A stretch of DNA of 48,307 nt, from NCBI GenBank assembly GCA_015522695.1, contig WALT01000005.1, positions 1 through 48,307 of the forward strand, in the 5' to 3' direction. The notes beneath the pieces are model-generated. The model saw only the letters and a program-made list of their open reading frames with translations. It was not told the origin of the DNA and searched no databases. Positions 4,548-32,927 of the stretch are shown piece by piece. The DNA comes from Nitrososphaerota archaeon. GTDB taxonomy: Archaea > Thermoproteota > Nitrososphaeria > Conexivisphaerales > Conexivisphaeraceae. Made by a program: the position numbers and the translations under genes. Numbering within the stretch: the first letter of the stretch is position 1; every line of letters starts with the position of its first letter.

Positions 4548-5389
4548 CCGAAAGGTTGCGGATAGCCTTCCAGGGTGAGCGCGGCTCGTTCACGGAGGAG
4601 GCTGCGACGGATCGCTTCGGCGAGGACGTGGAGTTCATGGGCTTCGAGAGCTTGAACAGTGTTTTCAACGCGGTGGAGGTCGGTGCGGCCGATTATGCCG
4701 TGGTACCGGCCGAGAACAGCTTGGTCGGCACGGTCGGCGAAACATATGATATGTTGCTGGTCCATAGCCTTTCGATAGTCGGAGAGACAATACTCAGGAT
4801 AGAGCACAACCTCCTCAGCGTGAAGGACGCCAGCCTGGACGACGTTACCACCGTCTGGTCACATCCACAAGCGTTGGGGCAATGTTCGAGGTTCATCGAG
4901 AAGGAAGGGCTCGCCGTCGTCCCCAAACCGAACACCGCCATGGCGGCCAAGGAGCTGGGCGAGAACCCGGATCCAACTGTCGGGGTTATAGCGAGTCGCA
5001 GGGCGGCGGAGATATACGGGCTCGATGTGCTCATATCCAATATAGAGGATAACCCGAACAATTATACACGGTTCTTCGTTTTAGGAAGGGAGATTCCTAA
5101 ACCCACTGGCAAAGACAAGACATCGATAATATTCTCGACCAGCCACGAACCCGGCTCCTTATATAGATGCCTGGAGGTATTCGCCTCCAAGGGGATAAAC
5201 CTGACGAAGATAGAGTCCAGGCCGACGAAGTTGAGGCCATGGGAATATTATTTCTACCTGGACTTCGAGGGCCACGTGGAGGATGAAATCCCCCGAGAGG
5301 CCCTGAGGGAGCTGGCTGGCAGGGCGATAATCCTCAAGGTACTTGGATCGTATCCGAGGGCGAGTGAGCCTTCATGCTCGAGGAAGTGA
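4544..5389 (+). CDS. pheA: prephenate dehydratase with C-terminal ACT domain
   Basis: A 281-residue monofunctional prephenate dehydratase converting prephenate to phenylpyruvate in phenylalanine synthesis. The catalytic domain opens with RIAFQGERGSFTEEAA; VVPAENSLVGTVGETYDML is a substrate-binding segment, and NNYTRFFVLG is the catalytic TRF motif. The ACT domain (about 185-275) contains ESRPTKLRPWEYYFYLDFEG, the phenylalanine-sensing ESRP motif, so feedback inhibition by Phe is expected. The TTG start overlaps the ilvE stop by 4 bp, placing two aminotransferase-linked amino-acid pathways in one transcript. There is no fused chorismate mutase. Confidence 0.96.
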   Translation: MTERLRIAFQGERGSFTEEAATDRFGEDVEFMGFESLNSVFNAVEVGAADYAVVPAENSLVGTVGETYDMLLVHSLSIVGETILRIEHNLLSVKDASLDDVTTVWSHPQALGQCSRFIEKEGLAVVPKPNTAMAAKELGENPDPTVGVIASRRAAEIYGLDVLISNIEDNPNNYTRFFVLGREIPKPTGKDKTSIIFSTSHEPGSLYRCLEVFASKGINLTKIESRPTKLRPWEYYFYLDFEGHVEDEIPREALRELAGRAIILKVLGSYPRASEPSCSRK

Positions 5390-5988
5390 AGAGGAGCCTG
5401 GCGAGGGAAGCCCGTTACCTGGCCCTTCAAGGGCTGGTGGCCGGTCGCGAGGGGAACATAAGCCATCGCGTCGATGACAAGGTGGTGATAAAGGGGACAG
5501 GAGTGAGGATGCTCAGCGCTAGATCGAGCGATTTCGCGGTCATGACAGCCGATGGAAGCTATCTGGAGGGCCCTCCTCCAAGCAGCGAGTACCGGATGCA
5601 CTTGATGGCTTATAGGGCCGATCCGGGGATACGTGCCGTCGTCCACGTACATCCTCCATATACGCTAGTGCTGCTGAGGATCGGGGTGGAGCCGAAACCC
5701 CATACGCTGGAGGCCGAATCATATTATTCGCGGGTGTGCATCACAGGGAGACTTTCACCTGGGAGCATGGAACTGGCGAGTGGTGTATCCGGGTTGATCT
5801 CGACCGGTTGTAACGTCATCGCGTTGATGGACCATGGAATAGTGACCGTGGGCTCGAGCGTCGGCGAAGCTGTGGATAGGGCTGCTGCAGAGGAGCGTTC
5901 CTCTCAGGTACAGCTACTCGTCATGCTGGGACAGAAAAACTTATTTTCTTCGCGAAAAGGTGCAAAAAAAGCAGGCTGGAGGCGGTGA
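5374..5988 (+). CDS. class II aldolase/adducin family protein (fuculose-phosphate aldolase-like)
   Basis: A 204-residue zinc aldolase-fold protein. Recognisable motifs are GREGNISHR, KGTGVRM, SSEYRMHLMAYR and VVHVHPPY, whose two His belong to the zinc site. The third ligand is probably His in LMDHGIVTVG. Family members cleave fuculose-1-phosphate or related phosphosugars, or act in methylthioribose salvage and aromatic pathways; the substrate is not evident here. The C-terminal tail is basic (SSRKGAKKAGWRR). It overlaps pheA by 16 bp, and its stop overlaps the rpoK start, so it sits inside one operon. Confidence 0.88.
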   Translation: MLEEVKRSLAREARYLALQGLVAGREGNISHRVDDKVVIKGTGVRMLSARSSDFAVMTADGSYLEGPPPSSEYRMHLMAYRADPGIRAVVHVHPPYTLVLLRIGVEPKPHTLEAESYYSRVCITGRLSPGSMELASGVSGLISTGCNVIALMDHGIVTVGSSVGEAVDRAAAEERSSQVQLLVMLGQKNLFSSRKGAKKAGWRR

Positions 5989-6281
5989 TTTTGGCGGGCT
6001 CCAAGGTAGCAAGCGAGGAGGATACAGCATCGGATAACGAGGAGGTCAAGATCGGCCCGCCGCAGCTCACCAAGTTCGAGAGGGCCAGGATCGCGGGAGC
6101 TCGCTCCCTACAGCTCTCCCTCGGAGCTCCTCCGTTGATACCCGTCGAGGGCCCGATCAGATCGACGATAGAGCTGGCGATCAGGGAACTCGATAGCTGT
6201 GCCCTCCCGATCTCGGTGAGGAGGAGCCTTCCCGACGGCGACCATCAGGATATCCCGATATCCGAGCTCCTGCACGGCTAA
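5985..6281 (+). CDS. rpoK: DNA-directed RNA polymerase subunit K (Rpb6/omega homologue)
   Basis: A 98-residue protein. Residues 28-95 match archaeal RpoK: LTKFERARIAGARSLQLSLG is the family core, followed by APPLIPVEGP, IELAIRELDSCALPISVRR and LPDG. The subunit clamps the largest polymerase subunit and helps assemble the enzyme. An acidic 25-residue N-terminal extension (ASEEDTASDNEEV) precedes the core and resembles the acidic N-terminus of eukaryotic Rpb6. The start is a GTG overlapping the aldolase stop by 4 bp. Confidence 0.95.
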   Translation: MILAGSKVASEEDTASDNEEVKIGPPQLTKFERARIAGARSLQLSLGAPPLIPVEGPIRSTIELAIRELDSCALPISVRRSLPDGDHQDIPISELLHG

Positions 6282-6321
6282 ACTTAATTACCCGGGGATC
6301 CCACGATTAACTCTCCGGAGC

Positions 6322-6639
6322 GTGAGGGATGGTTTGTCGGAATCGGAAGACGAGGGTGAGATGGCGCATAGACTTCCGCCACATTACCTGGTCGTGGACG
6401 ACCAAAAACCCACCAGGGCCTATATATTATCGGGATCAGTCCAACTGTCGGTGTCCAACAAGCTCGTCCTGCTCGCGCGCGGCAGGAGCATCAGTAAAGC
6501 GGTGGACGTGGCATTGGGGATATCGTCCAAGCTCGGGGGCAGGGCTTCGGTAAGGGAAATCAAGCTCGGTTCCGACCAGCTCTCCTCCGGGAGATATATC
6601 TCGACGATCGAGATATCGATGGAGGCAGAGGATGGTTAG
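6322..6639 (+). CDS. Alba-like DNA/RNA-binding protein
   Basis: A 105-residue protein whose central part aligns with Alba. YILSGSVQLSVSNKLVLLAR corresponds to the first strand and helix, and GRSISKAVDVAL is the diagnostic Alba segment; the Lys in ISKAV is often the acetylated/nucleic-acid-contacting residue. It ends with the strand YISTIEISM. Alba dimers coat DNA and bind RNA. The N-terminus is acidic and unusual (SESEDEGE); an alternative ATG at 6361 would remove it. A TATA-like AACTTAATTA lies at 6281-6290, about 35 bp before the GTG start at 6322. It follows rpoK by 40 bp and precedes metK. Confidence 0.8.
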   Translation: MRDGLSESEDEGEMAHRLPPHYLVVDDQKPTRAYILSGSVQLSVSNKLVLLARGRSISKAVDVALGISSKLGGRASVREIKLGSDQLSSGRYISTIEISMEAEDG

Positions 6640-6705
6640 GGCATGTGACCGAGCAAGATAAATTCAGGTTTTTCTCGTACTACGTGCACAAGAAAGGGAA
6701 ATAAT

Positions 6706-7917
6706 ATGAAGTCGCATGCGATATCGGTCAGCACATCAGGAGGGCTCCCGGTAGGTAGGAGGCCTGTGGAGCTCGTCGAGAGGAAGGGGAAGGGACACCC
6801 TGATACCGTCTGTGACAAGGCAGCCGAGGAGGCTAGCATAGCCCTCTCGAAGTACTACCTGTTGAAATATGGTAGAATACTTCACCATAACTTGGATAAA
6901 TGCGTGTTGATAGGGGGCCAAGCTAAGGCCTGGTTCGGCGGCGGCTATATAATCGAACCCATGTACCTCTTGATGGTCGGGAGGGCCACGACGAGGGTGT
7001 TCAAGGGGGGGATCTTGGAGGAACTCCCCGTCGGTAGCATAATATTGAAGGCCATAATGGAGTGGTTGAGGGAAGATTTCAGGTTCCTCGACCTCGACTC
7101 ACATATCGTCGTCGACTACAGGGTGAAGCCGGGCAGCACGGATCTCGTGGACGTGTTCGAGTCGAGCGATGGAACGCCCTTGGCCAATGATACGAGCTCA
7201 GGGGTCGCATTCGCCCCATATACCGAGACGGAGAAACTCGTGATGGAGACGGAGAGGATGCTCAACTCGAGGGAGTTCAAGCGAAGGCTTCCCGGGGTCG
7301 GGGAGGATGTCAAGGTGATGGGAGTCCGCCAGGGCGATAAGGTGTCGTTGACAGTGGCGGCTGCCATAGTCTCGAAGCTGGTGCCGGATAAAGATCACTA
7401 CATCTCAGTGGTGGAGGAGGCCAAGGAGAGGATCCTCGATCTCGCATCTAGGATGACCGGGATGGACGTCTCGGTCTCCGTCAACGCAGCCGACGATTAT
7501 GAGAAGGAGAGGTTTTACTTGACGGTCACGGGCCTCAGCGCTGAGAACGGCGACGACGGACAGGTGGGGAGGGGAAATAGGGTGAGTGGCCTCATAACCC
7601 CGCTGAGGCCGATGTCGCTGGAGGCTGCAGCCGGTAAGAACCCCGTCAATCACGTGGGCAAGATATACAACGTCGCAGCACATGAGATCGTGAACAGGCT
7701 AGTTTCAGAGGTTAAAGGGATCGATGAGTCCTATTGCTATATATTGAGCAAGATAGGGCATCCGATAGATGAACCACAAGTACTACATGTGGAATATTCC
7801 GGCAGCCCGAGCTTGGATTCCGTCAGGAGGTACGTCGAGTCGCTCGCCGATGATGTCATGGAAGGGCTCCCCCGGATCTGGGAGGGCATAATGGAGCGCC
7901 GCTACACGTTATTCTGA
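6706..7917 (+). CDS. metK: archaeal-type S-adenosylmethionine synthetase
   Basis: A 403-residue enzyme of the archaeal methionine adenosyltransferase family, distinct in sequence from bacterial MetK. The N-terminal part has [20 protein letters not shown], the catalytic signature containing the conserved His and Asp; [20 protein letters not shown] and the nucleotide-binding region [20 protein letters not shown] follow. It makes AdoMet from methionine and ATP in the cytosol. Length is normal for the family. It is followed after 2 bp by an MTHFR-like gene and then a Trm112-like gene, a grouping that joins methyl-group supply with methyltransferase activation. Confidence 0.96.
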
Positions 7918-7919
7918 AG

Positions 7920-8732
7920 ATGTACGGGACGCCACCGCGTGTAGCCCTGGAATCGACACATTATCCATCGGACGAAGGGATCCTGAAGGTCCTGGCCTCG
8001 AATGGGCTCATAGACGCCGTGATCGTGCCCGATCTACCCATGGGTAAGGTCAACATGGACTCAGTGGTCGCGGCCCACATGATCACATCCCACATGGGCA
8101 TTCCAGCATATGCGACCATCTCGTTGGGCCACAGGAGCCCACAGGCCTCGCTATCCAAGATACTGTCGGCGTGCCTCTTAGGCTTGGACGGTGTCCTGCT
8201 CGTGGCCGGCGACGTCAGGGTTTGTTCCCCCAGGTTGAGCGTCTACGATGCGATAAGGTATGCGAGCGATCTCCCGAACGCTGAGCTGCAGGGCTACGAA
8301 CATCTGTCATCCGTCAAGGGCACGCTCAAATCCTGTAATGGTTTTCTGGTGGGAGCGGTGGTCGACCTCAGATGTCCCAGATCGCTGAGGACCATCGATA
8401 GAAAGATATCGAAGGGGGCGCGGTTCCTGGTCACACAATTGATGGCCCACCCGAAACGACACCTGGATATCATACGTCAAGTCTCCTCCAGGATATATTT
8501 GATGATAGGCGTTCCATATATCGGACAGGGCTCCCCTAGGTCGCTGGAGAACATCATGGGGGAACCCGTGCCCGATCCAGGTGATCTATCGACGGAACTG
8601 GAGGGGGTGCTGGAGGAGCTCGGGGGAGGGAACGCCGGCGTCGGATTCTACGTGTCGGCTGTCGGGGCGAGGGCGAGGGAGATGGAAGGACTTGCGGGTT
8701 TCCTGGAGGGCTTGAAGCGGGCATCGGCCTAG
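7920..8732 (+). CDS. methylenetetrahydrofolate reductase-like TIM-barrel protein
   Basis: A 270-residue protein resembling the MetF/MTHFR flavoprotein family. Matching stretches are the N-terminal RVALESTHYPSDEG (family E near the start), AYATISLGHRSPQASLSKIL, GLDGVLLVAGDVRV (the family GD after a strand), GARFLVTQLMAHP, equivalent to GADFFITQ, and YLMIGVPYIGQ. MTHFR reduces methylene-tetrahydrofolate or a pterin analogue to the methyl form for methionine synthesis. Position 2 bp after metK supports a role in C1/methionine metabolism. It is diverged, and whether it uses folate or methanopterin is not visible. A related TIM-barrel oxidoreductase is the alternative. Confidence 0.65.
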   Translation: MYGTPPRVALESTHYPSDEGILKVLASNGLIDAVIVPDLPMGKVNMDSVVAAHMITSHMGIPAYATISLGHRSPQASLSKILSACLLGLDGVLLVAGDVRVCSPRLSVYDAIRYASDLPNAELQGYEHLSSVKGTLKSCNGFLVGAVVDLRCPRSLRTIDRKISKGARFLVTQLMAHPKRHLDIIRQVSSRIYLMIGVPYIGQGSPRSLENIMGEPVPDPGDLSTELEGVLEELGGGNAGVGFYVSAVGARAREMEGLAGFLEGLKRASA

Positions 8733-8735
8733 GCA

Positions 8736-8750
8736 TGCTTATTAAGGGGA
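8736..8750 (+). promoter_or_regulatory. TATA-like box before the Trm112-like gene
   Basis: The sequence GCTTATTAAGG lies about 30 bp upstream of the ATG at 8773. That is the distance expected for an archaeal TATA box driving a nearly leaderless transcript, so this gene can be transcribed apart from metK. Confidence 0.5.
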
Positions 8751-8772
8751 ATGACCACGAAATGGGCGAATC

Positions 8773-9162
8773 ATGAGGTATTGGCTCCTCGATATACTGG
8801 CATGTCCCATGTGCAAACACTTCCCGCTGGATCTCTACGTGTTCGATGAGCGGCTGGAGGACTCGAAGACGGATGTGAAGGAAGTTCCATGTGAACTCTA
8901 TTGCGGTTACAGGAGGATGCGGCTGGAGGGCGTGGATAGGGAGGGACACAGGAGGACGTGTGAGGAGTGCATGAGGCATATCGTGGTCAACGGCCTCCTC
9001 GTCTGTCCCAAGTGTGGAAGATGGTACCCGATAATGGATGAGATACCTCACATGTTACCGGACAAGCTCAGGGATAAGAGCAGGGAGCTCGGATTCCTCA
9101 CGAGGTTCAAGGATAACATCCCCAGCGATGTCCTCGAGAGAGGAAAACCGTTTCACCTCTAG
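8773..9162 (+). CDS. Trm112-like zinc-binding methyltransferase activator
   Basis: A 129-residue protein. It begins MRYWLLDILACPMCKHFPL, as Trm112 does, and ends its core with VNGLLVCPKCGRWYPIMDEI. Metal-ligand pairs visible are CPMC, CEEC and CPKC, with a further Cys in LYCGY. Trm112 proteins are obligate small partners that stabilise several AdoMet-dependent methyltransferases acting on rRNA, tRNA and release factor. The middle insertion (about 25-75) is longer than in minimal archaeal homologues. It follows metK and the MTHFR-like gene, consistent with a methylation role. The gene ends 4 bp into the convergent inositol monophosphatase gene. Confidence 0.85.
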   Translation: MRYWLLDILACPMCKHFPLDLYVFDERLEDSKTDVKEVPCELYCGYRRMRLEGVDREGHRRTCEECMRHIVVNGLLVCPKCGRWYPIMDEIPHMLPDKLRDKSRELGFLTRFKDNIPSDVLERGKPFHL

Positions 9163-9992
9163 CCCGTAAACCTACATCCCTTCGTCAATCCAAGCCCCTC
9201 CAACACCTCATCCATTATGCGCTTGTTTGCCGCCACCACGAACTTCAGTCGATTCATCGTGTCGAGCGGGTAATCGTACAGCTCCTCATCGATGGTCGCC
9301 ACCAGCCCCCCGGAGGACTCGACGAGGAATATCGACGGTAGACAGTCGAAGCTCCTGAGCCCTCTATATGAGGCTACGTGTGCCTCCGTCCTGCCGATGG
9401 CAACATACACCGTCTCCAGGGCGGCCGATCCGAACATCCTGGGATACTTCACCCTCCCGGTAAGCTTCGCGATCCTCGTCAGCTCATCATCCCTTAATCC
9501 CTGAGGTTGTGTGTGAAAGCTGATGGCGCTCTCCTCGAGGATCATGATCCTCGAGGGCCTCGCAGGCCTCCAATCCACATAGACAGCCCCTCGATGTCCC
9601 CAGTATACCTCACCCCTCAGATGGTCCATCACACCGGCTGCGACTATGTCCTTATATCGTCTACCGCCTTCCCTTGTGATCGCTATGGTCGTAGCGTATG
9701 GCAAGAGCCCCTTCTTGGCGTTCGTGGATCCATCCAACGGGTCGACCAGGATGAGAGGACCACTCCCGCTCTTTATCCCCCTCTCCTCCGTGACTATATA
9801 TGCGTCCGGGATCCTCTCCCTCACGATGTTCAACACCGCCTCCTCCGCCTCCAGATCTGCCCTTATCGTCGCGTCGCCGAAGAACCCCCTCCCGACGTAT
9901 TCACCTCCCCTCCCGCTCCGCAACGACGTCAGCACGGCCTCCCTCGCAGCCCTGAGAGCGTCCCTCACCAGCTCCAAGTACTTATATCTCAT
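9159..9992 (-). CDS. inositol monophosphatase / fructose-1,6-bisphosphatase family protein
   Basis: A 277-residue Mg-dependent sugar phosphatase. Motifs seen are ADLEAEEAV near the N-terminus, VTEERG carrying the metal-binding Glu, ILVDPLDGSTNAKKGL, the family signature with its metal-ligand Asp residues, and a diverged C-terminal motif in LRSFDCLPSIFLVESSGGLV where the usual WDxAAG reads FDCLPS. Archaeal members often hydrolyse both fructose-1,6-bisphosphate and inositol-1-phosphate, serving gluconeogenesis or compatible-solute synthesis. The altered second motif may change substrate choice. It ends 14 bp downstream of ileS on the same strand, so co-transcription is likely. Confidence 0.88.
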   Translation of the reverse strand: MRYKYLELVRDALRAAREAVLTSLRSGRGGEYVGRGFFGDATIRADLEAEEAVLNIVRERIPDAYIVTEERGIKSGSGPLILVDPLDGSTNAKKGLLPYATTIAITREGGRRYKDIVAAGVMDHLRGEVYWGHRGAVYVDWRPARPSRIMILEESAISFHTQPQGLRDDELTRIAKLTGRVKYPRMFGSAALETVYVAIGRTEAHVASYRGLRSFDCLPSIFLVESSGGLVATIDEELYDYPLDTMNRLKFVVAANKRIMDEVLEGLGLTKGCRFTG

Positions 9993-10006
9993 GGATTGCG
10001 GATGGG

Positions 10007-13000
10007 TTAAACGTCGACAAATATCTTCTGTCCCTCTATCTCGAATTCACTCCATCTTCCAGGCCCCTCAGGCCCATCCAGGACCTCTATCCTCTTGACC
10101 CTGACTAGATGCAATAGGATATCCATCCTATCCTTCACGGCCTCGGCCATCTCCCTCGATAGGCCTGTCAGCCTCACGACCTCCAGGATATCCGTCGGTT
10201 TATAGCCCCTCTCCTTTCTGAGCACCTGTATCCTACGGGCTATATCCCTTATCATCCCCTCGTCGAGCAGCTCCCTATCCCTCATCACATTGAGGACAAC
10301 GGCATAACGATCCCTATAAGCACCTGAGAAGCCGCTGGGGACCTCCAATCGGAACTCGACGTCGTCCTCAGTTATCTCGAACGATCTCCCTTCTGCTCTG
10401 ACCTCGGCCTTGCCCTTCTCCTCGATCTCCATCGCCAACCGCCAGGGATCGATCTTTGTGAGGGTCCCCAGCACCTTCCTTGTATCCCCCCTGTAGCGTT
10501 CCCCTAAACTCGATATTATAGGCTTAACCTCGAGTCTGGCCGGCACCCTTCCAGGATCCTCATGGAGGTACAATTCCTTCACGTTCAACATCTGCCTCAA
10601 GAGCTCCTTGATATCGTCGGGAAGCCCTGTCGGCGAATATACATGTGCCTCCCTGAGGGCCCATCTCCGTTTTATGCTGGCCCTCATCCTCGCCGAGTTG
10701 GCGACCGACACGATGTTCCAGAACGCCTCGAATGCCATCTCCAATCCCTCGTCCAGAAGCTCCGACCTGCTGATCGGCGCCCTCTCGACGACCAAGCTCG
10801 AAGCCCCTTCCACATAGAATGCGTTATAGATGTAGTCCGTTGTGTAGGGAGCTATCGGGTGTAGCAACTTCAGAACTATGAGGAGGACGTGGGCGAGCGT
10901 ATCGTAGATCGCCAATCTCCTCGGGAGGGTTTCAGGGGAATCTTCCCATAGCTCGCTGCGCACCAGTGGAACGTACCTCTGGCTCACGACGTCTATTATG
11001 AACCTCTCGAGCTCCCTTGCAGCTTCATGGAACCGTCTCCTCTCGTATGAGATCAAGACCGATTCGATCAACCTTTGTGATAGCGACAGAAGCCACCTGT
11101 CCTGTGGCCTCAAGTTCCTGTTCCCGACGAGCTCGTGCAGCCTTTCCCCTCTCCATCTATAACCATCGTATTCTCCGTTCTCACTCAAGAAGACGAACAG
11201 GTTATAGATTGTGTTCAGGACCTGGAACGGTCTTCCCCTCATCTCCTTCCTCGAGAAGTTCATCGGGTCCACAGGGTTCGTCTTCCAAACGAGGTAGTAC
11301 CGCGCGACGTCCACAGGGCTCTCGCGGAAGAGATCCATGGCGTATATCACATTGCCCTTGGACTTGCTCATCTTCTCCCCCTTCTCGTCGAGGACATGCC
11401 CCACGAAGAGGAACGATCTATATGGGGCCTCATCCCTTCCGGTGAGCACGACATTTTCCATGAGGAGGGAGTAGGCCCAACCCCTCGTCTGATCTATGCC
11501 CTCGGTCAGGAAGGGCACAGGTATGAGCTCCTCGAACTCCTCATCGGTGAGCGATGAATACGGCGCTGCCCCACTATTGTGCCAAGTATCGAGCACGAAG
11601 GGCTCGCGGTATGCCGGCCCTCCACATCTAGGACATTTCAACACGATCCTGTCCATCCATGGTCTGTGTAGCTCGAAATCAGGGCCGTCAGGTAGCTCGA
11701 TGGCCCTTTCCAATATCTCCTTCCTCGATGGGACGATGAACTTGTGTCCACATCTGCTACACACCCATACCGGTAACGGCGTCCCCCATACACGCTCTCT
11801 GCTGATACACCAAGGTTTAGCCTCACCGATTATCCCCATGAACCTGTTCCTCGGCTGTTGATAGTAATACTCCACCTTCTCGGATGCCCTGATGGCCCTG
11901 TCCACGATCCTGTCAACCCAGTAGAAGTACTCCCTTCTGGCTACGAATATCAATCTATGGCCGCTCCTCCAGCAGACAGGGTACTCGTGCACAATCCTAT
12001 CGGCCTTGATCAGAAGCCCCTTCCTCCTCAGATCCTCTACTATCTCATCGTCCGAATCCCTGACGAACTTGCCAGAATATTTGCCGGCCTCCTCCGTGAA
12101 CCTCACCCGATCATCTATGGGGTTGAATATCGGTAGACCTCGTCTCCTCGCAACCTCGAAGTCCTCCTCTCCGTTGGCTGGCGATAGATGTACGAGGCCG
12201 GTCCCGGTGCTGGTGTCGACGAAGTCCTCGGCCACGATCCTGTGTACCACACCCTGCTCCAGTAACGTCCTCTGACCGGGAACCTCATCCAGGAGCGGTG
12301 GCATGTACCTCTTGCCCTCCAGCTCCTTCCCCTTGACCCTCTTGAACACCCGATATCCCTCGATGTCCAGCTCCTTCGATAGGTCCTCGAGCCTGCCCTC
12401 GGCCACGATCCACGTCTCGTCGCCGACTCGTATGTACACGTAATCTGCGTCCGGGTTCACGCCTACAAGTTCATCCGTGACTATCGTGAACGGCATCGTC
12501 GTCCACAGGATGAGATGTACATCCTCGTCCACGAGCCTTGTCTTATAATATATGGATGGATCCTCGAGCATCTCATAGCTGGACGCGACCTCGCTATGGC
12601 TGAGCGATGTTTGACAGCTGGGACAATATGCTACAACCCTATATCCCTCACCTAAAATGCCGTCATCCCAAGCCCTCTTGAGGTACTTCCATTCCCTCTC
12701 GATATATCGATCCTCATATGTCCAGTAGGCCCTTCCGTAATCGAGGAGGATGCCGAGCAGATCGTCGGCCTCCATCCAGATCTCGTTGTACTTGTGCACT
12801 ATGTCCTTGCAGGCCTCGACCAGCTTCTCGGCGGAGATCCTCTCCAGGACCTCAGCCTTGCTGCCCGCCATCCCCAACTCCCTCTCAGCCTGTAGTTCGA
12901 CCGGCAACCCCTGTGTATCCCAACCGGCCCTGAAGATCACCCTGAAGCCCTTCATCGTCTCCAGGCGGAACCAGAGATCCTTCAACATCCTCCCCCGGAT

Positions 13001-24900: not shown

Positions 24901-25102
24901 CATCAGCGAAGCTATATCCGTATTTGGTACGTTTTTCGTACACAGAACGCGATAATTCGTCCATATCCCTCCCTAAATTATGATTTAATAAAATTAATTG
25001 GTATATATTTTAGATTATTTCAGATTAATTTAATATCTTTCTTTAAATCGACATCAAAGCTTAAAGTTTTTATCCTATAAGATTTAGGGTTAATGCGCGG
25101 AA
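24901..25102. promoter_or_regulatory. AT-rich promoter region of the NCS1/hydantoin operon
   Basis: A 200-bp AT-rich spacer. It opens with a small hairpin, GTACG-TTTTT-CGTAC (24927-24941), possibly the end of the ABC operon. It then holds several TATA-like stretches, including TGATTTAATAAAATTAATTGG and TATATATTTTAG around 24980-25015. The region just before the NCS1 ATG (25103) has TTTTTATCCTATAAG near 25066-25080, about 25-30 bp from the start. Confidence 0.5.
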
Positions 25103-26479
25103 ATGGTTAATCAAGAAAAGAAAACCGAGGATTATTATGGTGATTTTGCCGTCGTCAGGGTCCCTGAACATGAAAGACGGACGATGATGAATCAACTGAT
25201 GGTCTTCTTGGGGGTGCTGGCTGTATGGGCGGCCGTGTTCGGCGGCGCTAGCATGGCCGGTATAATGGATGCTTGGGAGATAGTCTGGGCCTCAGTTCTC
25301 GGGAGCGTTGTCCTGGGGGTGATAGCCTTCCTCATAGGGCTCATCGGCGGCTACGCATCCGTCCCTACCTACGTGATATTGAGACATTCGATGGGCAGGT
25401 TCGGCAGCATATTGACGGGGTTGGTGTTATCGGGCATCAGCGCAGCCCTGTGGTTCTCCTTCGAGACATGGCTCTTCGGTGTGATAATGCAGGAGACATT
25501 CCCCAACTTCGTGTTGACAAAGGTGGAGATAGCGGCCATTTGGGGTGGCCTGTTGATGATGAGCACAGCCCTCATAGGATATAGAGGACTCTCCGCCCTC
25601 AGCTATTTCGTGGTCCCCGCATGGTTCGCGATAATACCGATGGCGCTGGTCGCTGCCATCTCCGTGCACGGCGGTTGGGGGGCGTTGTTGGCCGCTCAAC
25701 CTGCACACCACGTCAGCCTAGCCACGGGGATAACGTTCGTCATCGGTCTATATATAGTCGGCGCGACGATAGCTCCAGACGTCACCAGGTATTCCAGGCG
25801 TCCATTCGATGGTTCGATAGCATGGTTCATACACGTGGTCGTCTTCATGCCCATAATATTGATGGCCGGCGGCTGGCTACAGCTTCTCGTACCGGCAGGC
25901 AGGACCCTCGTAGCGGAGATGATCGGAATGGGCATGATATGGGCCGTCCTGTTGACGGGGATAGTCGGCCAATGGACGACGAACGATAACAACCTCTACA
26001 GCGCATCGCTCGCCTGGGTCAACGCCGTGCCGAGGATCAAGCGATCGATATGGGTCTTGATATTGGGCATAATCGGCACGGCGGTGGCCGCGATGATAGG
26101 GATGGGCTATGGGATATCGCTCTCGGCCCTGCTGCAGTTCGGCACCCTCCTGGGCACGTTCATACCGCCGATAACCGGGGTCATGATCGCGGACTTCTAC
26201 CTAGTACAGCCGTTCCTGCTGAACAGGAGGAACCCCAGGGGAAGATATGAATTCGGCCCCGGAACGATCTATGGCAGCCTGCGATGGCCTGGATTCCTGG
26301 GTTGGATCCTTGGGAGCATAATAGCCTATTATACGCCGATGGTGGCACCACAGATGCCCGCGGCCATCTCCGGCCTCCTGGCCGGGTTCTTCATACATCT
26401 GATCTTGATGGCGATCTGCGTGGCTGGCAGGATACCGTACGATGCCGGCAAATGGAGGGAGACCGAGACGGGGTGGTAG
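25103..26479 (+). CDS. NCS1-family nucleobase/hydantoin permease
   Basis: A 458-residue transporter with about 12 hydrophobic helices. The N-terminus DYYGDFAVVRVPEHERRTMM and the following AVFGGASMAGIM, GLIGGYASVPTYVILRHSMG and VGATIAPDVTRYSRRP fit the CodB/NCS1 family, which moves cytosine, purines, allantoin or hydantoins with H+ or Na+. Its place at the head of an operon with a DUF917 protein, a hydantoinase and a hydantoin racemase suggests a hydantoin-like substrate, as with bacterial Mhp1; this is inferred from context. Confidence 0.9.
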   Translation: MVNQEKKTEDYYGDFAVVRVPEHERRTMMNQLMVFLGVLAVWAAVFGGASMAGIMDAWEIVWASVLGSVVLGVIAFLIGLIGGYASVPTYVILRHSMGRFGSILTGLVLSGISAALWFSFETWLFGVIMQETFPNFVLTKVEIAAIWGGLLMMSTALIGYRGLSALSYFVVPAWFAIIPMALVAAISVHGGWGALLAAQPAHHVSLATGITFVIGLYIVGATIAPDVTRYSRRPFDGSIAWFIHVVVFMPIILMAGGWLQLLVPAGRTLVAEMIGMGMIWAVLLTGIVGQWTTNDNNLYSASLAWVNAVPRIKRSIWVLILGIIGTAVAAMIGMGYGISLSALLQFGTLLGTFIPPITGVMIADFYLVQPFLLNRRNPRGRYEFGPGTIYGSLRWPGFLGWILGSIIAYYTPMVAPQMPAAISGLLAGFFIHLILMAICVAGRIPYDAGKWRETETGW

Positions 26480-26480
26480 A

Positions 26481-26876
26481 ATGGGGAGCTTGAAGAGGTT
26501 CGTGATGGTCGTGTTCTCGATCACGTCGCTGCTCTTCATAATAGGGGCCATCGTTGGATATGTCGGGGCGACGAACTACACGATCCACCTCGTGGCGTTC
26601 AGCGTGGCTGGCCTCCTGCTGACGCTGGCCAGCCTAGCCAGGGTGACGATCACCCCGGAGGGCGCGACCGAGAGGTTGGGGGAGGTGAGCGTACAGGGCA
26701 CGTGGATATGGACGTCGTTATCGCTCGTCTACATAACGATGTCCCCGGCCAGCATATACGGCACACATCCGTGGGCCCTGGCGATCCTGGAGGTCGTCGG
26801 ATTCGTGATGTTGGCGTTCGGCGCCTATACGCTGTTCAGGATAAAGAGGGATACTGGAGTGTACCTCTCGATATAA
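26481..26876 (+). CDS. small four-helix membrane protein of the NCS1 operon
   Basis: A 131-residue protein with four hydrophobic segments (about 6-28, 33-52, 73-90 and 98-118) and no recognisable family. The start is the ATG at 26481, one base after the NCS1 stop; the upstream in-frame codons belong to the NCS1 reading region and are not needed. Its tight coupling to the permease suggests an accessory membrane subunit. Confidence 0.75.
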   Translation: MGSLKRFVMVVFSITSLLFIIGAIVGYVGATNYTIHLVAFSVAGLLLTLASLARVTITPEGATERLGEVSVQGTWIWTSLSLVYITMSPASIYGTHPWALAILEVVGFVMLAFGAYTLFRIKRDTGVYLSI

Positions 26877-26909
26877 GATAAAAGCCCCCATTTTCTTGGA
26901 GGTCGAGGG

Positions 26910-27998
26910 ATGTTCAACATCACGCCACAGGACGTCGAGGACCTGGCCATCGGGGCCGCCATCCTCGGGACGGGTGGTGGGGGAGACCCCTACATGGGTA
27001 AGCTCATGGTCCTGCAGGCGCTTGAAAGGGGCAGGACCGTGACGCTCGTCGACCCCAGGGATGTGGATGAAGACTCGTTCGTCGTCTCCTCGGCCTTCAT
27101 GGGTACCCCGATAACGATGATAGAGAAGCTCCCGAGCGGGCTCGAGGGGGTAAAGGCCCTCGAGTCCCTCGAGGGGTATTTCGGCAGGAGGGCCGACTAC
27201 TTGACCCCTGCCGAGTCGGGCGGCCTCAACTCGACGATCCCCCTCTACGTGGCCGGCATAGCTGGAAGGCCCGTCATCGATGGCGATGGTATGGGCAGGG
27301 CCTTCCCCGAGCTCCAGATGGTGACCTTCCACCTATATGGGGTCAAGGCGACCCCGATGTCGTTAGCGGACGAGAAGGGAAACGGGGTGATACTGGACAC
27401 GATAGATAACTTCTGGGCTGAGAAGATAGCCAGGTCCGTCACGATACGCATGGGTGGCTGGGCCTCCATAGCCCTATATCCCATGAGTGGTTCCCAGCTC
27501 AAGCGTTCGATCGTGGGGAACACGATAACGAAGGCCATGGGGATAGGCAGGAGCATCAGGGAGGCCAAGGCCGTCGGTAAAAACCCCATAGATGCAGTCC
27601 TAGACTTCACAGGCGGATTCGAGCTCTTCGAGGGCAAGATAACGGACGTCAGCAGGTGGATAGTCTCGGGCTTCGCCAAGGGCGAGGTGACGATCGATGG
27701 TTTAAACGATTACCGTGGGAGGAAGTTGAACATACAGTTCCAGAACGAGAACCTGGTCGCCATGATCGATGGAAGCCCGGCCGCCTCCGTGCCGGATCTG
27801 ATAACGGTGCTCGACATGGAGACGGCTGAGCCGATAACGACTGAGCGGTTGAAATACGGATTCAGGGTCGTGGTCATAGGGATACCGTGCGATGTGAAGT
27901 GGAGGAACGAGGAGGCGTTGAGACTGGTCGGCCCGAGGTACTTCGGCTACGACATCGATTATTCGCCGATCGAGACTTTGATGGAGGGACGGGGTTGA
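26910..27998 (+). CDS. DUF917 protein (S-methyl-thiohydantoin desulfurase family)
   Basis: A 362-residue protein with the DUF917 hallmarks: DVEDLAIGAAILGTGGGGDP at the N-terminus, PAESGGLNSTIPLYVAG, and VIDGDGMGRAFPELQM. Family members occur beside or fused to hydantoinases; one branch is annotated as S-methyl-thiohydantoin desulfurase. A Shine-Dalgarno GGAGGTCGAGGG precedes the ATG. The stop overlaps the hydantoinase start by 4 bp. Here it probably acts on a hydantoin or thiohydantoin before ring opening; the exact reaction is inferred. Confidence 0.88.
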   Translation: MFNITPQDVEDLAIGAAILGTGGGGDPYMGKLMVLQALERGRTVTLVDPRDVDEDSFVVSSAFMGTPITMIEKLPSGLEGVKALESLEGYFGRRADYLTPAESGGLNSTIPLYVAGIAGRPVIDGDGMGRAFPELQMVTFHLYGVKATPMSLADEKGNGVILDTIDNFWAEKIARSVTIRMGGWASIALYPMSGSQLKRSIVGNTITKAMGIGRSIREAKAVGKNPIDAVLDFTGGFELFEGKITDVSRWIVSGFAKGEVTIDGLNDYRGRKLNIQFQNENLVAMIDGSPAASVPDLITVLDMETAEPITTERLKYGFRVVVIGIPCDVKWRNEEALRLVGPRYFGYDIDYSPIETLMEGRG

Positions 27999-29569
27999 CG
28001 AAGTACCGCGTCGGCATCGATGTGGGCAGCACTAACACGGATGCCGTAGTGATAGATGAGAAGGGCGGGCTCATACACGCAGTGAAGACGCCGACGACTG
28101 CAGACGTGACGACGGGCGTGACGAGGGCCTTGACGTCCGTGGTCGAGGGATCAGGGGTGTCGAGGGATGAAATAACGGCGGTCATGTATGGGACTACACA
28201 TGGGCTGAACTCGATAGTCGAGAGGAAGGGCTTGATGAAGGTCGGCGTGCTCAGGATAGGGCTTCCGGCCTCCTCCTCGATAGAGCCGATGATGGACTGG
28301 TCAAGCGATTTGAGGGAGGGTATCGGGGACGTCAAGGTCATGGTCAGAGGGGGACACGAGTACAATGGGGATGAGATCTCCCAGCTGGATGAGGAGGCCA
28401 TAGGGAGGGCTGCCGAGCTCTTCCTCGATTCGGGGGTCGAGTCGGTGGCGATAGCGTCGGTGTTCTCGCCTGTGAGGGATGACCATGAGAGGAGGGCTGC
28501 CGAGATCATAGGGGACGTCATGGGAGATATCCCGATATCGCTCTCATCCACGATAGGCAGCATAGGGTTCCTGGAGAGGGAGAACGCCACCATATTGAAT
28601 GCGGCCATAGTCGGGGTGATGAGGAGGAGCATATCGGCGGTCAGGAGGACCATGGAGGATCTGGACCTGGCATCGGCCAGGTTATTCCTGGCGCAGAACG
28701 ATGGGACGGTGATGTCGGCCGAGCAGGCCGAGAGATATCCCATCTTCACGGTCGCGGCCGCCGTATCCAACAGCGTCAGGGGTGCCCACGTCCTCACGGG
28801 GCTCTCGGATGCCATAGTCGTCGACATGGGAGGCACGACGACGAACATAGGGGTCCTGGAGAGGGGTTTCCCACGCGAGAGCTCGTCGGCCGTGTACATA
28901 GGTGATGTCCGCACGAGCTTCATGATGCCCGACTTCATCTCCATAGGCGTCGCCGGGGGGAGCATGGTGAGGAAGGTCGACGGTTCCATCACGGTCGGGC
29001 CGGAGAGCGTGGGCTACAGGCTCACGAGCTTGGGTATAGCGTGGGGCGGCGACGTCGTGACGGCGACCGATGTTGCCCTTGCGCTGGGGATCATGGTCGT
29101 GGATGACCCGGATTGCGATCCAGATCTCGCCAGGTCCAGGGTTTCTGGAGAGGTTGCTGAAGGGGCATATGGATATATAGTGTCGAGGATAGAGGAGGGT
29201 ATAGATAAGGTTAAGACGAGACCGGATCCCATGTCGGTCGTGCTCGTGGGCGGAGGCAGTGCGATGTTGCCCGAGGAACTGAAGGGAGCGTCCGAGGTCA
29301 TGAGGCCTGAGGGTGCGCAATCCGCAAACGCCATCGGGGCGGCTACGGCGCTCGTGGGCGCGACGGTGGAGAGGGCTTATAGCTATGAGCAGGTGTCGCG
29401 GGGGAGGGCGCTGGAGGACGCCAAGAAGGTCGCCAAGGGGAGGGCGATCGCCGCCGGCGCTGAGCCGAGCAGCGTGGAGGTTGTGATGGTGGAGGAGGTT
29501 TCGATGCCATATCTCCCCGGGAACACCGTGAAGGTGAGGGTTAAGGCGGCCGGGAGGGCCTTCATGTAG
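27995..29569 (+). CDS. hydantoinase/oxoprolinase family ATPase (HyuA-like)
   Basis: A 524-residue protein. The N-terminal KYRVGIDVGSTNTDAVVIDE is the actin-like ATPase phosphate-1 loop, VMYGTTHGLNSIVERKG is a family motif, and AIVVDMGGTTTNIGVLERG is the second phosphate loop of HyuA. It is shorter than the 700-residue HyuA and lacks a HyuB partner, fitting the DUF917-associated subfamily. Members hydrolyse hydantoins or 5-oxoproline with ATP. I start at the TTG at 27995, which overlaps the DUF917 stop and gives the normal N-terminus; the frame runs 36 codons upstream into DUF917. Confidence 0.92.
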   Translation: MTKYRVGIDVGSTNTDAVVIDEKGGLIHAVKTPTTADVTTGVTRALTSVVEGSGVSRDEITAVMYGTTHGLNSIVERKGLMKVGVLRIGLPASSSIEPMMDWSSDLREGIGDVKVMVRGGHEYNGDEISQLDEEAIGRAAELFLDSGVESVAIASVFSPVRDDHERRAAEIIGDVMGDIPISLSSTIGSIGFLERENATILNAAIVGVMRRSISAVRRTMEDLDLASARLFLAQNDGTVMSAEQAERYPIFTVAAAVSNSVRGAHVLTGLSDAIVVDMGGTTTNIGVLERGFPRESSSAVYIGDVRTSFMMPDFISIGVAGGSMVRKVDGSITVGPESVGYRLTSLGIAWGGDVVTATDVALALGIMVVDDPDCDPDLARSRVSGEVAEGAYGYIVSRIEEGIDKVKTRPDPMSVVLVGGGSAMLPEELKGASEVMRPEGAQSANAIGAATALVGATVERAYSYEQVSRGRALEDAKKVAKGRAIAAGAEPSSVEVVMVEEVSMPYLPGNTVKVRVKAAGRAFM

Positions 29570-29570
29570 G

Positions 29571-30353
29571 ATGGGGATGGGGATGGGAAGGATCAAAGTC
29601 CTGGATCTGATCCCTGTCTTCATGACGAAGGAGATAGGCTCGGCGGTGAAGGACAGGAAGGACTATGCCGACCTCCTCTCACGGGATACCAATGGCCTCG
29701 TGGAGCTCGGGGTCAAGGCATTGGAGAAGGGTACGGCATCGATAGAGGGAGTATACGACGAGATCGTGGATGCGCCATATATACTCTCGGAGACCGTGCG
29801 AGCTGAGATGGAAGGTTACGATGCGGTCGTCATCGATTGTTTCGGGGATCCTGCTCTGGATGCGGCACGAGAGCTGGTCAGCATACCGGTCGTCGGGGCC
29901 AACATCGCTGCATCCCACCTGGCAGCACAGATAGCTGGAAGATATTCCGTGATCAACATACTCCCGGAGACGGAGCCCATAATACGTGCCCTCACTCGCA
30001 AATACGGCCTCGAGGGCTCCCTCGCCAGCGTCAGGACGATAAACGTCCCGGTGTTGGATCTCGAGGGGAAGATGGACGTGGTCGTCGAGTCGGCCGTCCG
30101 CGAGGCCGAGGCCGCTTACACGAGGGATGGGGCATATGCGATAGTGTTGGGGTGTACCGGGATGTCTGCGCTGGCCGATAGGATAGGCGCAGGCCTCGAG
30201 GGATTGGGGATACACATGCCGGTGATAGAGCCGCTCAGGGCCGCTATCGCCACGGCAGTGTCCATGGTCATACAGGGGATATCACACAGCAAGCTCGCAT
30301 ACCCGAGGCCCAGAGCCAAGCCCAGGAGGGCCGACTTCGAACTTCCGTTCTGA
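29571..30353 (+). CDS. Asp/Glu/hydantoin racemase family protein
   Basis: A 260-residue protein. The two catalytic cysteines of the family are seen in VVIDCFGDPAL and IVLGCTGMSAL, and ASHLAAQIAGRYSVI is the conserved helix after the first half. Such enzymes invert hydantoin or amino-acid stereocentres with a two-base Cys mechanism. It starts directly after the hydantoinase (29571, stop at 29569), so it likely feeds the correct enantiomer to it. The N-terminal repeat MGMGMG comes from a GGGGAT repeat; the ATG at 29577 or 29583 could be used instead. Confidence 0.92.
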   Translation: MGMGMGRIKVLDLIPVFMTKEIGSAVKDRKDYADLLSRDTNGLVELGVKALEKGTASIEGVYDEIVDAPYILSETVRAEMEGYDAVVIDCFGDPALDAARELVSIPVVGANIAASHLAAQIAGRYSVINILPETEPIIRALTRKYGLEGSLASVRTINVPVLDLEGKMDVVVESAVREAEAAYTRDGAYAIVLGCTGMSALADRIGAGLEGLGIHMPVIEPLRAAIATAVSMVIQGISHSKLAYPRPRAKPRRADFELPF

Positions 30354-30372
30354 TCCTGATCATGATCTGGAC

Positions 30373-31479
30373 TTGATCATAAGATCCGTAGAGGCCTTCA
30401 CGGCCGACTTGAGGCTGACCGACCCCATCAGGATAGCCTATGCCGAGATCAGGGACGTGCGGACGGTGTACGTCAAAGTCCAGCTCGAGGGTGGGATCGC
30501 CGGTTGGGGTGAGGCCGCAGCTTCACCGGCGATAACTGGGGAGACCGAGGAAAGCATGATATCGGCGATCTCGACGATCGCCAAGGGCATAATTGGGAGG
30601 GATGCGACCGCATATAGGGACGTCGACGAGAGGATATCTTCGTCGATGGAGCGGAACCCGTCAGCCAAGGGCGCGGTATCGACCGCCGTGCTCGACGCCG
30701 TGGCAAAGGGCTATGGGCTCCCGGTCTATAAGCTGCTGGGCGGTGAGGGTGGCTCTATCGTCACAGATGTCACAATAGGGCTCGATAGCCCTGAGGGGAT
30801 GGCTGAGGGTGCCAGGAGATGGGTGGACGAGGGCTTCAGGACGCTCAAGCTCAAGCTCGGCGGCCCAGTATCCCTCGATTTGAGGAGGGTAGAGGCCGTC
30901 AGGGACGCGGTCGGGGATGGCGTGAAGTTGAGGGTGGACGTCAATCAAGCCTGGTCGCTCGAGGACTCCATCTCGGCCGTCGATGTGCTCGAGGGGCTCG
31001 GGGTGGAGCTCGTCGAACAGCCGCTATCGGCGTCCTCGTTGATGGAGCTCTCCGAGCTCAGGTCCAGGTCCACGATCCCGATAATATTGGACGAGAGCGT
31101 GTTCGGCCCCAACGACCTCATGTCCGTGCACGAGAAAGGGGCAGCGGATGGCATCAACGTAAAGCTGGCGAAGTCGGGCGGCCCGATTCGATCCCTGGAC
31201 TTGGCCAATTCGGCGCGCTCGCTCGGCCTGGAGTTGATGATGGGGTGCATGGCCGAGTCGAACCTTGCATTAACCGCGGCCGTATCGGTCGCGATCGCCC
31301 ATGGAGGGTTCAGGTTCATAGATCTCGACTCAGATCTCTACCTCTCCGGACAGCCGGTGGGAGGTGGCTTCACCAGGCATGGAGATGAGTTGACGCCTCT
31401 GGATTCGCCAGGGCTATCTGTCGACGTCGACGAGATGAACATGGAGAGGAGGCTGTCCCTCGGCCACTGGATGCGATGA
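30373..31479 (+). CDS. enolase-superfamily dipeptide epimerase-like protein
   Basis: A 368-residue member of the muconate-lactonizing/dipeptide epimerase subgroup. The capping domain begins SVEAFTADLRLTDPIRIAYA. The barrel has FRTLKLKLGG with the KxK catalytic lysines, then LRVDVNQAW, ELVEQPL and IILDESVFGPNDL carrying the three metal ligands, and INVKLAKSGG with the opposing lysine. MGCMAESNL is typical of Ala-Glu epimerases. It may convert a carbamoyl or dipeptide intermediate or act on N-acyl amino acids. The start is a TTG at 30373, 20 bp after the racemase. Substrate is inferred only by operon context. Confidence 0.88.
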   Translation: MIIRSVEAFTADLRLTDPIRIAYAEIRDVRTVYVKVQLEGGIAGWGEAAASPAITGETEESMISAISTIAKGIIGRDATAYRDVDERISSSMERNPSAKGAVSTAVLDAVAKGYGLPVYKLLGGEGGSIVTDVTIGLDSPEGMAEGARRWVDEGFRTLKLKLGGPVSLDLRRVEAVRDAVGDGVKLRVDVNQAWSLEDSISAVDVLEGLGVELVEQPLSASSLMELSELRSRSTIPIILDESVFGPNDLMSVHEKGAADGINVKLAKSGGPIRSLDLANSARSLGLELMMGCMAESNLALTAAVSVAIAHGGFRFIDLDSDLYLSGQPVGGGFTRHGDELTPLDSPGLSVDVDEMNMERRLSLGHWMR

Positions 31480-32060
31480 TGAAGGTCATCTGCATCACAG
31501 GGTCGCCGGCGACGGGGAAGAAGGGGATAGGGATGAAGGTGGCCCATCTCCTCGGATGTGAACACATGAGCCTCCTGGATCTGGCCGGACGGCTGGACGC
31601 CATACTGACCTATGATGAACAGAGCCACGAATACGTGCTCGACGTCGACAAGTTGTCCCTATCCCTCCGATCCCACGCGCTGCCTCCAGATCTCTGTGTG
31701 ATCTCCGGGACCCTGATACCCTACGCAGTGCCTCCCGACCTCACCGATCTCGTGGTGGTCCTACGGGCTTCCCCGAAGGTCCTATACGAGAGGTATATCG
31801 CCCGGGGCTATGACAGGAGGAAGATATCCGAGAACCTAATCGCCGAGGCCCTGGGCGTCGTCTTGGATGAGGCGATGAGGAGATATGGCGAGGATCATGT
31901 GCATGAGATCGACGTCACCGATCTATCCCCGGACGATGTGGCGGCCGAGATTTCAGGCGTGCTCGAGCAGGGGGTCACGAGGGTGTATAGGATCGATTGG
32001 CTTGAGGAATGCTCATCGGACGACTTGTTGAGGGACGTCTGTTTCGATACCTCCACGTAG
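31476..32060 (+). CDS. AK6/Fap7-like adenylate kinase family protein with altered P-loop
   Basis: A 194-residue P-loop protein of the archaeal AK6 type. The P-loop reads GSPATGKKGIG, where the usual Thr/Ser after the lysine is a second Lys. DPPDLTDLVVVLRASPKVLYER, of which VVVLRASPKVLYERYIARGY is clear, followed by DRRKISENLIAEALG, is the diagnostic LID and C-terminal part (R-Y-x-x-K--EN--AE). AK6 proteins act in nucleotide balance and in small-subunit ribosome maturation. The loss of the magnesium-binding Ser/Thr may weaken ATP hydrolysis. It overlaps the epimerase stop by 4 bp, though its role looks unrelated to hydantoin use. Confidence 0.85.
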   Translation: MMKVICITGSPATGKKGIGMKVAHLLGCEHMSLLDLAGRLDAILTYDEQSHEYVLDVDKLSLSLRSHALPPDLCVISGTLIPYAVPPDLTDLVVVLRASPKVLYERYIARGYDRRKISENLIAEALGVVLDEAMRRYGEDHVHEIDVTDLSPDDVAAEISGVLEQGVTRVYRIDWLEECSSDDLLRDVCFDTST

Positions 32061-32097
32061 TCCATGTGCACGTGTTCGTTCAACGAATTATATTGGT

Positions 32098-32134
32098 TAA
32101 ACTTATATATCCAGTTAATATAGATCTCACGTCC
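32098..32134 (+). promoter_or_regulatory. TATA box before the DUF5678-type gene
   Basis: GGTTAAACTTATATATCC (32096-32113) contains CTTATATA about 30 bp before the ATG at 32135, a good archaeal TATA element. It sets the pair of genes that follow apart from the hydantoin operon. Confidence 0.6.
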
Positions 32135-32539
32135 ATGACTGGTCGAGCGAGGAGGACGAGGCTCGTGGCGATCAAGAACTTCGACGAGGATCTCTATCGA
32201 ATGGTTAAAACTTATGCTGCGCTCACGGATGGAACTATCGCCTCCGTGATCGAGGAAGCCCTCCGCTCCTGGATGCGGGGCAGGGAGGATTATGATGAGG
32301 TCCGAGCCTGGGTCGCCTTGGAACGCGAGTATGAGGGGAACATCGGGGCGCTCGAGGAGGGGTCGATCGGAGAAAGTGATTCAGGTTACGTCCTCATATG
32401 TGATGGAAGGATCGTCGACCTCTTTAGAGGGTATGGGGATGCGGCGAGGGCATCAAGGGAATCCTGCGAGGTGCAGGCGTTGATAGTCGAGCTCCCGTAT
32501 AGCGAGGGTAGGGTGGTCGAATTGGGGCTCCCCTGGTGA
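32135..32539 (+). CDS. ribbon-helix-helix-like / DUF5678-like protein
   Basis: A 134-residue protein in two parts. Residues 8-50 (TRLVAIKNFDEDLYRMVKTY, then AALTDGTIASVIEEALRSWM) look like a ribbon-helix-helix DNA-binding domain. Residues 85-125 (GYVLICDGRIVDLFRGYGDA and the following strand VQALIVELPY) resemble DUF5678, a small domain often found next to archaeal aspartic-protease-like proteins. The start is the ATG at 32135, placed by the TATA box; the longer frame lies in promoter DNA. It ends 7 bp before the retropepsin-like gene. It could be a regulator or antitoxin-like partner of that protein. Confidence 0.72.
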   Translation: MTGRARRTRLVAIKNFDEDLYRMVKTYAALTDGTIASVIEEALRSWMRGREDYDEVRAWVALEREYEGNIGALEEGSIGESDSGYVLICDGRIVDLFRGYGDAARASRESCEVQALIVELPYSEGRVVELGLPW

Positions 32540-32546
32540 CCAAGCC

Positions 32547-32927
32547 TTGAAGGCCTACCTCGAGGACTCCGGGCTGAACTACGTCCCCATGGTCGAGGCC
32601 ACATTATGGGATCCCCTGGGCGATAAGCAGACGAAGCTCGTATTCGTGGTCGATACTGGATTCCAAGGAGGAGTCCTAGTACCCCTTCACGAGTACCTGG
32701 AGCTGGACCTCAACCTGTTCGAGGAGCCCAAGGTTATCGTTAGGACGGCCGTGGGTGGGGAGATGGAGATGAGGGTCTCGAGGGCTCTGACCGAGGTGGA
32801 CGGAGCGAGGGTCGCCTGTCACGCCTACACGACGCTGGGCGTGGTGAGGCCCCTATTGGGGAGGGAGGTCCTCGAGGATCTGGGCCTGCTCTATAGGCCC
32901 CCCGACGAGCTGAGGGTGGGCCTGTAG
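32547..32927 (+). CDS. retropepsin-like (clan AA) aspartic protease-fold protein
   Basis: A 126-residue single-domain protein. KLVFVVDTGFQGGVLVPLHE contains the DTGFxG active-site form of clan AA. A hydrophobic-hydrophobic-Gly pair near the end, VRPLLGREVLEDLG, matches the conserved LLG segment after the flap. Single-domain members dimerise to form one active site. The start is a TTG at 32547 preceded by GGTGACC, a Shine-Dalgarno overlapping the previous stop. Retropepsin-like genes in archaea are often next to small regulatory proteins, and the target is unknown. Confidence 0.82.
   Translation: MKAYLEDSGLNYVPMVEATLWDPLGDKQTKLVFVVDTGFQGGVLVPLHEYLELDLNLFEEPKVIVRTAVGGEMEMRVSRALTEVDGARVACHAYTTLGVVRPLLGREVLEDLGLLYRPPDELRVGL

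Follow-up and report, generated by a model that had tools for sequence, protein, structure and literature searches.

Within a 48,307-nucleotide stretch of contig WALT01000005.1 from a Nitrososphaerota archaeon (GenBank assembly GCA_015522695.1), hereafter called the window, six genes form an operon for which we propose, with a probability of roughly 0.45, a role in taking up a cyclic amide, opening its ring with ATP and cleaning up the stereochemistry; a 2,5-diketopiperazine (cyclic dipeptide) is the likeliest candidate for this ring. All six genes reside on the plus strand (25103-31479) and are nearly contiguous, with intergenic distances of 1, 33, -4, 1 and 19 bp. They encode an NCS1-family permease, a small membrane protein, a DUF917 protein, a short HyuA-type ATPase, a racemase and an enolase. 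An earlier note on this DNA had described a tightly packed operon of an archaeon, dedicated to hydantoin or thiohydantoin catabolism. The packed arrangement is indeed present, the archaeal host is borne out by relatives and tree, and the genes support a reading as uptake of a small cyclic amide, ring opening at the expense of ATP and stereochemical correction.

In the proposed pathway, the NCS1 permease and its four-helix partner would import the ring compound. The short HyuA would then phosphorylate a ring carbonyl at the expense of ATP, and DUF917, in the place of HyuB, would add water to the activated carbon, causing the ring to open; both steps we infer from gene pairing, co-evolution and sequence motifs. 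Were the ring a 2,5-diketopiperazine, the product would be a linear dipeptide. The two-cysteine racemase would invert an acidic alpha-carbon of the ring, while the enolase would epimerize the dipeptide and ordinary peptidases would finish the breakdown. A carbamoylase would not be needed, because ring opening would yield a dipeptide accessible to ordinary peptidases.

DUF917 as the probable partner of a short HyuA

A total of 99 loci with DUF917 genes was mapped, 20 of them neighbourhoods from a search of the phylum (398 genomes) and 79 from named genomes. The loci were picked by DUF917 similarity, and near relatives as well as a few duplicate genomes are included in the neighbourhood counts. 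In 80 of the 99 loci, a short HyuA gene shares the strand of the best DUF917 gene at a distance of no more than 200 bp (5 bp or less in 67 of them), and several of the remaining 19 loci without an adjacent HyuA gene are contig ends. Natural HyuA-DUF917 fusions were not present in any of the 99. Mirror-tree distance matrices correlated with r = 0.83 for DUF917 and HyuA as opposed to r = 0.57 for DUF917 and the permease; both values include shared ancestry, such that only the contrast between them is meaningful.

The window HyuA, with 524 amino acids, possesses the core domains of the HyuA/HyuB amidohydrolases, i.e., CapAB (PDB 6yra, which we take to be caprolactamase CapA), N-methylhydantoinase (7hk5) and 5-oxoprolinase, and both of their phosphate-binding motifs (D9-x-G-x-T13-x-T15-D16 and D277-x-G-G-T), which are conserved in 90% or more of 93 homologues. 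H69 and the stretches RENA, NDGT, SVGY and YLPGN are conserved in the subfamily. In the HyuA/HyuB enzymes, the HyuA gene is likewise paired with a gene for a second subunit. Unlike these enzymes, the window protein has DUF917 and not HyuB as its partner, carries a GPxSVGY stretch instead of the GxxPGP adenosine motif and lacks the C-terminal domain PF19278. Two other cassette HyuA proteins also lack this domain, whereas a pair of long HyuA proteins contain it, and one of these is encoded beside HyuB. In the source genome (95.5% complete, examined family by family) HyuA is encoded by a single gene, and no HyuB (PF02538) was found. In view of the shortness of HyuA, its pairing and co-evolution with DUF917 and the absence of HyuB from the genome, DUF917 is the probable stand-in for HyuB as the hydrolytic partner of HyuA.

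Caprolactamase illustrates the division of labour proposed for the family, with ATP-dependent activation of the lactam by the HyuA-type subunit CapA and ring opening by CapB at a metal site (PMC8453981, PMC6061476). Judging by the family name, relatives of DUF917 would hydrate the sulfur-bearing carbon of S-methyl-thiohydantoin, which by analogy would be a similar attack on an activated ring carbon. The AlphaFold model of the window DUF917 (predicted local distance difference test, pLDDT, 93) has 2o3i as its only PDB match, and a Foldseek search with this model revealed no fold link to HyuB. Our literature search retrieved no paper on a HyuA-DUF917 enzyme, and DUF917 itself was mentioned in only four papers of the library searched.

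Permease and small membrane protein

The permease is CodB-like overall, while some positions of its pocket are Mhp1-like. Family-profile scores against PDB entries amounted to 174.8 bits for CodB and 46.8 bits for Mhp1, and the cytosine permease model PRK11017 was matched with 170 bits, short of the required 326. The kinship to Mhp1 assumed in the earlier note is therefore not seen in the overall profile, although W117, E121 and N297, the last an Asn of TM8, align with Mhp1 W117, Q121 and N318, which contact the cyclic NH-CO face of the hydantoin (loop lengths differ near Asn318). Likewise, an association with cytosine or purine carriers, which the note had named together with enzymes inactive on hydantoins as refuting its reading, is apparent in part, by profile scores rather than in a tree. 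The stacking aromatic positions of the family members CodB (7qoa) and Mhp1 (2jln) are retained. However, the CodB ligand set is not: the positions of CodB Gln105, Trp108 and Phe204 are occupied by Ser/Thr/Pro, Trp and Tyr in the cassette permeases, and compared with Mhp1, Gln121 is replaced by Glu. All 13 cassette permeases compared share W117, E121, Y217, N294 and N297, and such a pocket would suit a ring that presents NH and CO in cis, be it a hydantoin or a diketopiperazine.

A further difference from CodB and Mhp1 is the pairing of the archaeal cassette permease with the small membrane protein, which is predicted by AlphaFold to consist of four helices (pLDDT 94). Of 21 credible homologues found in the phylum, 19 are encoded no more than about 5 kb from DUF917, and in 19 of 19 mapped places the gene sits directly downstream of one for an NCS1 permease. 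W75, S79 and Y84 are invariant in 17 aligned homologues. The mapped bacterial cassettes do not contain the protein, and a Foldseek search of the PDB gave insignificant matches to membrane proteins only. Some sodium-solute symporters have small subunits, and by analogy the protein is probably an accessory subunit of the NCS1 permease.

Racemase and enolase

The racemase is most similar in the PDB to the putative hydantoin racemase 3qvj (117 bits), and all 20 aligned rows share its catalytic cysteines C90 and C195. The best PDB matches of the enolase are the L-Ala-D/L-Glu epimerase of Bacillus subtilis (1jpm, 217 bits) and a dipeptide epimerase (3jva, 212 bits). The full residue set of these enzymes is aligned in the window protein (K159-x-K161, D189, E215, D240, K264, D317-x-D319). 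In the B. subtilis dipeptide epimerase, the DxD pair holds the ammonium group of the dipeptide. The specificity of the window enolase is probably different from that of L-Ala-D/L-Glu epimerases, because its 217 bits fall below the cut-off of 500 for the corresponding NCBIfam equivalog; moreover, its host is an archaeon, in which murein is not expected. In the hydantoin route envisaged by the earlier note, a dipeptide epimerase is not needed, while it could be of use on the product of cyclic-dipeptide opening, and this counts against the hydantoin reading.

Links to cyclodipeptide oxidase and peptides

In Archaeoglobus (locus L066), one operon comprises genes for DUF917, HyuA, permease, racemase, the cyclodipeptide oxidase subunits CDOA and CDOB, a dipeptide epimerase-like enolase and an Lrp-type regulator, in this order. 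The enolase has the same dipeptide-epimerase motifs as the window protein, and CDOA finds its best PDB match in albonoursin synthase AlbA (E 1e-33); the small partner in a relative matches AlbB. CDOB (PF19585) occurs in 27 of the 398 genomes, 22 of which encode DUF917, whereas DUF917 overall is present in 69 of 398 (Fisher p 3e-14, uncorrected for relatedness), and eight CDOB genes are situated within about 7 kb of DUF917. Three archaeal loci (L187, ~6924-10750; L188, ~6780-11700; L189, ~5000-10050) combine NCS1 permease, small membrane protein, CDOA/CDOB, an M29-like peptidase and DUF917, with no HyuA gene nearby. Bacterial loci often feature oligopeptide-type ABC transporters in place of the permease; OppB-type transporter genes were detected in 21 and SBP5 genes in 16 of the 99 loci.

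Clusters of cyclodipeptide oxidase, DUF917 and racemase genes were published in 2024, and the authors favoured hydantoins or allantoin as substrates (PMC11055893). Relatives of the window operon resemble these non-CDPS cyclodipeptide-oxidase clusters in carrying CDOA/CDOB together with DUF917, racemase, AroM and peptide transporters. The window differs from them in having no oxidase, and we favour cyclic dipeptides over the published substrates because of the links to epimerase and peptidase.

That published preference weighs against our proposal, as do several observations of our own. CDOB was not found in the source genome. The enolase rarely neighbours the cassette, namely in the window, in the Archaeoglobus operon and as a distant, truncated copy in L047, and its co-location with DUF917 in the phylum (G000 and G170; nearby, G313 and G288) is too sparse to weigh much alone. 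The minimal cassette also exists free of any peptide gene. The nearest characterized relative of the permease transports cytosine, and an NCS1 pocket may fit small rings only. Furthermore, the DUF917 activities named in NCBIfam concern thiohydantoins, cassette copies in Methanomethylicales are accompanied by MtmB methyltransferase genes, and PucR-type regulators were found in 3 of 65 neighbours.

Alternative substrates

Among the alternatives, a hydantoin pathway fares best, although we consider it unlikely. HyuA-DUF917 would convert 5-substituted hydantoins into N-carbamoyl amino acids by ring opening, with the racemase acting on the hydantoin, and the product would be exported or passed to an unrecognised carbamoylase. 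This would agree with the kinship of HyuA to N-methylhydantoinase (92 bits), the hydantoin-racemase-like enzyme with both cysteines kept, the Mhp1-like pocket positions and the naming of DUF917 relatives after thiohydantoins. On the other hand, the CodB-like character of the permease as a whole does not favour it, and recognisable downstream enzymes to match are missing. The earlier note had remarked on the lack of an N-carbamoylase, and this holds genome-wide at the sensitivity used: the genome encodes two CN-hydrolases and three M20 enzymes, which belong to other families and do not match carbamoylase models, and its best cyclic amidohydrolase candidate resembles dihydroorotase. Within 8 kb of DUF917, the 99 loci yielded no M20 gene (the queries were three archaeal proteins, so that a remote M20 could escape), three weak CN-hydrolases and a single locus of the dihydroorotase/hydantoinase type.

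Lactam hydrolysis, in which HyuA-DUF917 would be a replacement 5-oxoprolinase acting chiefly on 5-oxoproline formed from glutamate in hot acid, appears distinctly improbable. The best PDB match of HyuA, 6yra (93 bits), is deposited as 5-oxoprolinase, HyuB is absent from the source genome as stated above, and saci_0368/0369 of Sulfolobus acidocaldarius has been given as 5-oxoprolinase for pyroglutamate (PMC11486757). However, the invariant Glu of the permease pocket would be expected to repel an anion, a long HyuA and HyuB coexist with the cassette in some relatives, and a dipeptide epimerase would be superfluous.

Still less credible is salvage of a nucleobase-like or N-methylated ring (dihydropyrimidine, creatinine-type). 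The CodB-like permease, the MtmC/MtmB genes adjoining the cassette in Methanomethylicales and the PucR-type regulators would be in line with it; the replacement of CodB Gln105 would not, nor would the racemase, which implies a stereocentre beside a carbonyl, and neighbours of the dihydropyrimidinase, allantoinase or carbamoylase type are nearly absent. In a Methanomethylicales genome, locus L060 (5416-8826; on one contig with L043) has, after the cassette, a corrinoid protein gene and two MtmB genes of full length that lack an in-frame TAG, i.e., non-pyrrolysine MtmB relatives. A methylamine-linked substrate is a lead only, as the MtmB neighbours were observed in a single genus and follow a gap of 230 bp.

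Breakdown of a thiohydantoin or of thiohistidine (ergothioneine-type), with desulfuration by DUF917 and ring opening by HyuA as the earlier note had suggested, is scarcely tenable: the window DUF917 shares Pfam family and overall architecture with (S-methyl-)thiohydantoin desulfurases but scores 81.4 and 79.2 bits with the equivalog models NF058529 and NF058532 (cut-offs 440 and 450), has a near-constant and co-evolving HyuA partner that desulfuration alone would not need, and is not accompanied by ergothioneine-pathway genes, as the genome search found no urocanase (PF01175) and the best amidohydrolase reached 242 and 213 bits where the ErtD models require 650 and 600. A literature search yielded no paper on thiohydantoin desulfurase.

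Distribution and origin of the cassette

The combination of NCS1 permease, four-helix protein, DUF917 and short HyuA is a widespread uncharacterized cassette. Its permease-DUF917-HyuA core was found across archaea and bacteria, and because of this recurrence a chance grouping of genes was rejected. A permease of the window's family is present in 53 and a racemase in 24 of the 99 loci. Plasmids of Limosilactobacillus oris and Parageobacillus (Bacillota) carry permease, DUF917 and HyuA together, in the former case with no further annotated metabolic gene beside them. In Lactobacillus rhamnosus, the same three gene names bear consecutive accession numbers and occur in the majority of strains compared (PMC7513527).

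In the tree, the window copy clusters with those of Acidilobaceae and Desulfurococcales (99% support in the Shimodaira-Hasegawa-like approximate likelihood ratio test, SH-aLRT), while DUF917 relatives occur in only 4 of 250 genomes of the source's class and are absent from the three genomes sampled from its family. The operon was therefore likely gained laterally in the source lineage.

In loci of Chloroflexota (L095, L116, L123 and others), a single HyuA gene and a peptide-type ABC transporter are surrounded by as many as four or five DUF917 paralogues, which suggests heteromeric or multi-substrate sets of DUF917 proteins. Genes for AroM and/or DUF1177 recurrently adjoin DUF917 cassettes (L035-L038, L040/L065 of Caldivirga, L094, L117 and L122).

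Operon layout and neighbouring genes

Open reading frames were called mechanically, and family membership of five of the six proteins was confirmed with Pfam and NCBIfam (Table 1). The HyuA gene starts with TTG and shares 4 nt with the end of the DUF917 gene, including its stop. Upstream, an ABC-2 exporter is set apart from the operon by AT-rich DNA (24901-25102). Downstream, the start of an AAA_18 kinase-like gene (31476-32060) overlaps the enolase stop by 4 nt; it may be co-translated and is probably unrelated. A small open reading frame without family assignment (32009-32539) adjoins a gene (32547-32927) for a protein resembling the DTGF family of clan AA aspartic proteases (46.7 bits, cut-off 57.4).

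Table 1 Genes of the operon in the window and their family matches
Product	Position	Strand	Family match and remarks
NCS1-family permease	25103-26479	+	PF02133, E 3e-16
Small four-helix membrane protein	26481-26876	+	No Pfam/NCBIfam match
DUF917 protein (S-Me-THD-like)	26910-27998	+	PF06032, E 5e-57; PF20906, E 2e-74
Short HyuA-type ATPase	27995-29569	+	PF05378, E 1e-42; PF01968, E 7e-27
Asp/Glu/hydantoin-type racemase	29571-30353	+	PF01177, E 5e-35
MR/MLE enolase, dipeptide-epimerase-like	30373-31479	+	PF13378, E 4e-49; TTG start

Implications

More tentatively than for the window operon itself, we suggest that HyuA-DUF917 could be an ATP-dependent cyclic dipeptidase that is widespread in archaea and bacteria and provides a general salvage route for cyclic dipeptides. 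In archaea, its substrate would be delivered by an NCS1 permease that has a small membrane subunit of its own. The permease-DUF917-HyuA combination is common and reaches lactobacilli and plasmids of the Bacillus group, yet DUF917 is barely mentioned in the library searched. If DUF917 substitutes for HyuB, many genes now called hydantoinase or oxoprolinase would need renaming, and the small membrane protein, if its role is true, would add a subunit to NCS1 transporters. Little is known about the degradation of cyclic dipeptides (PMC3852281), and if the ring is a cyclic dipeptide, the cassette would supply the missing breakdown side of this class of metabolites.

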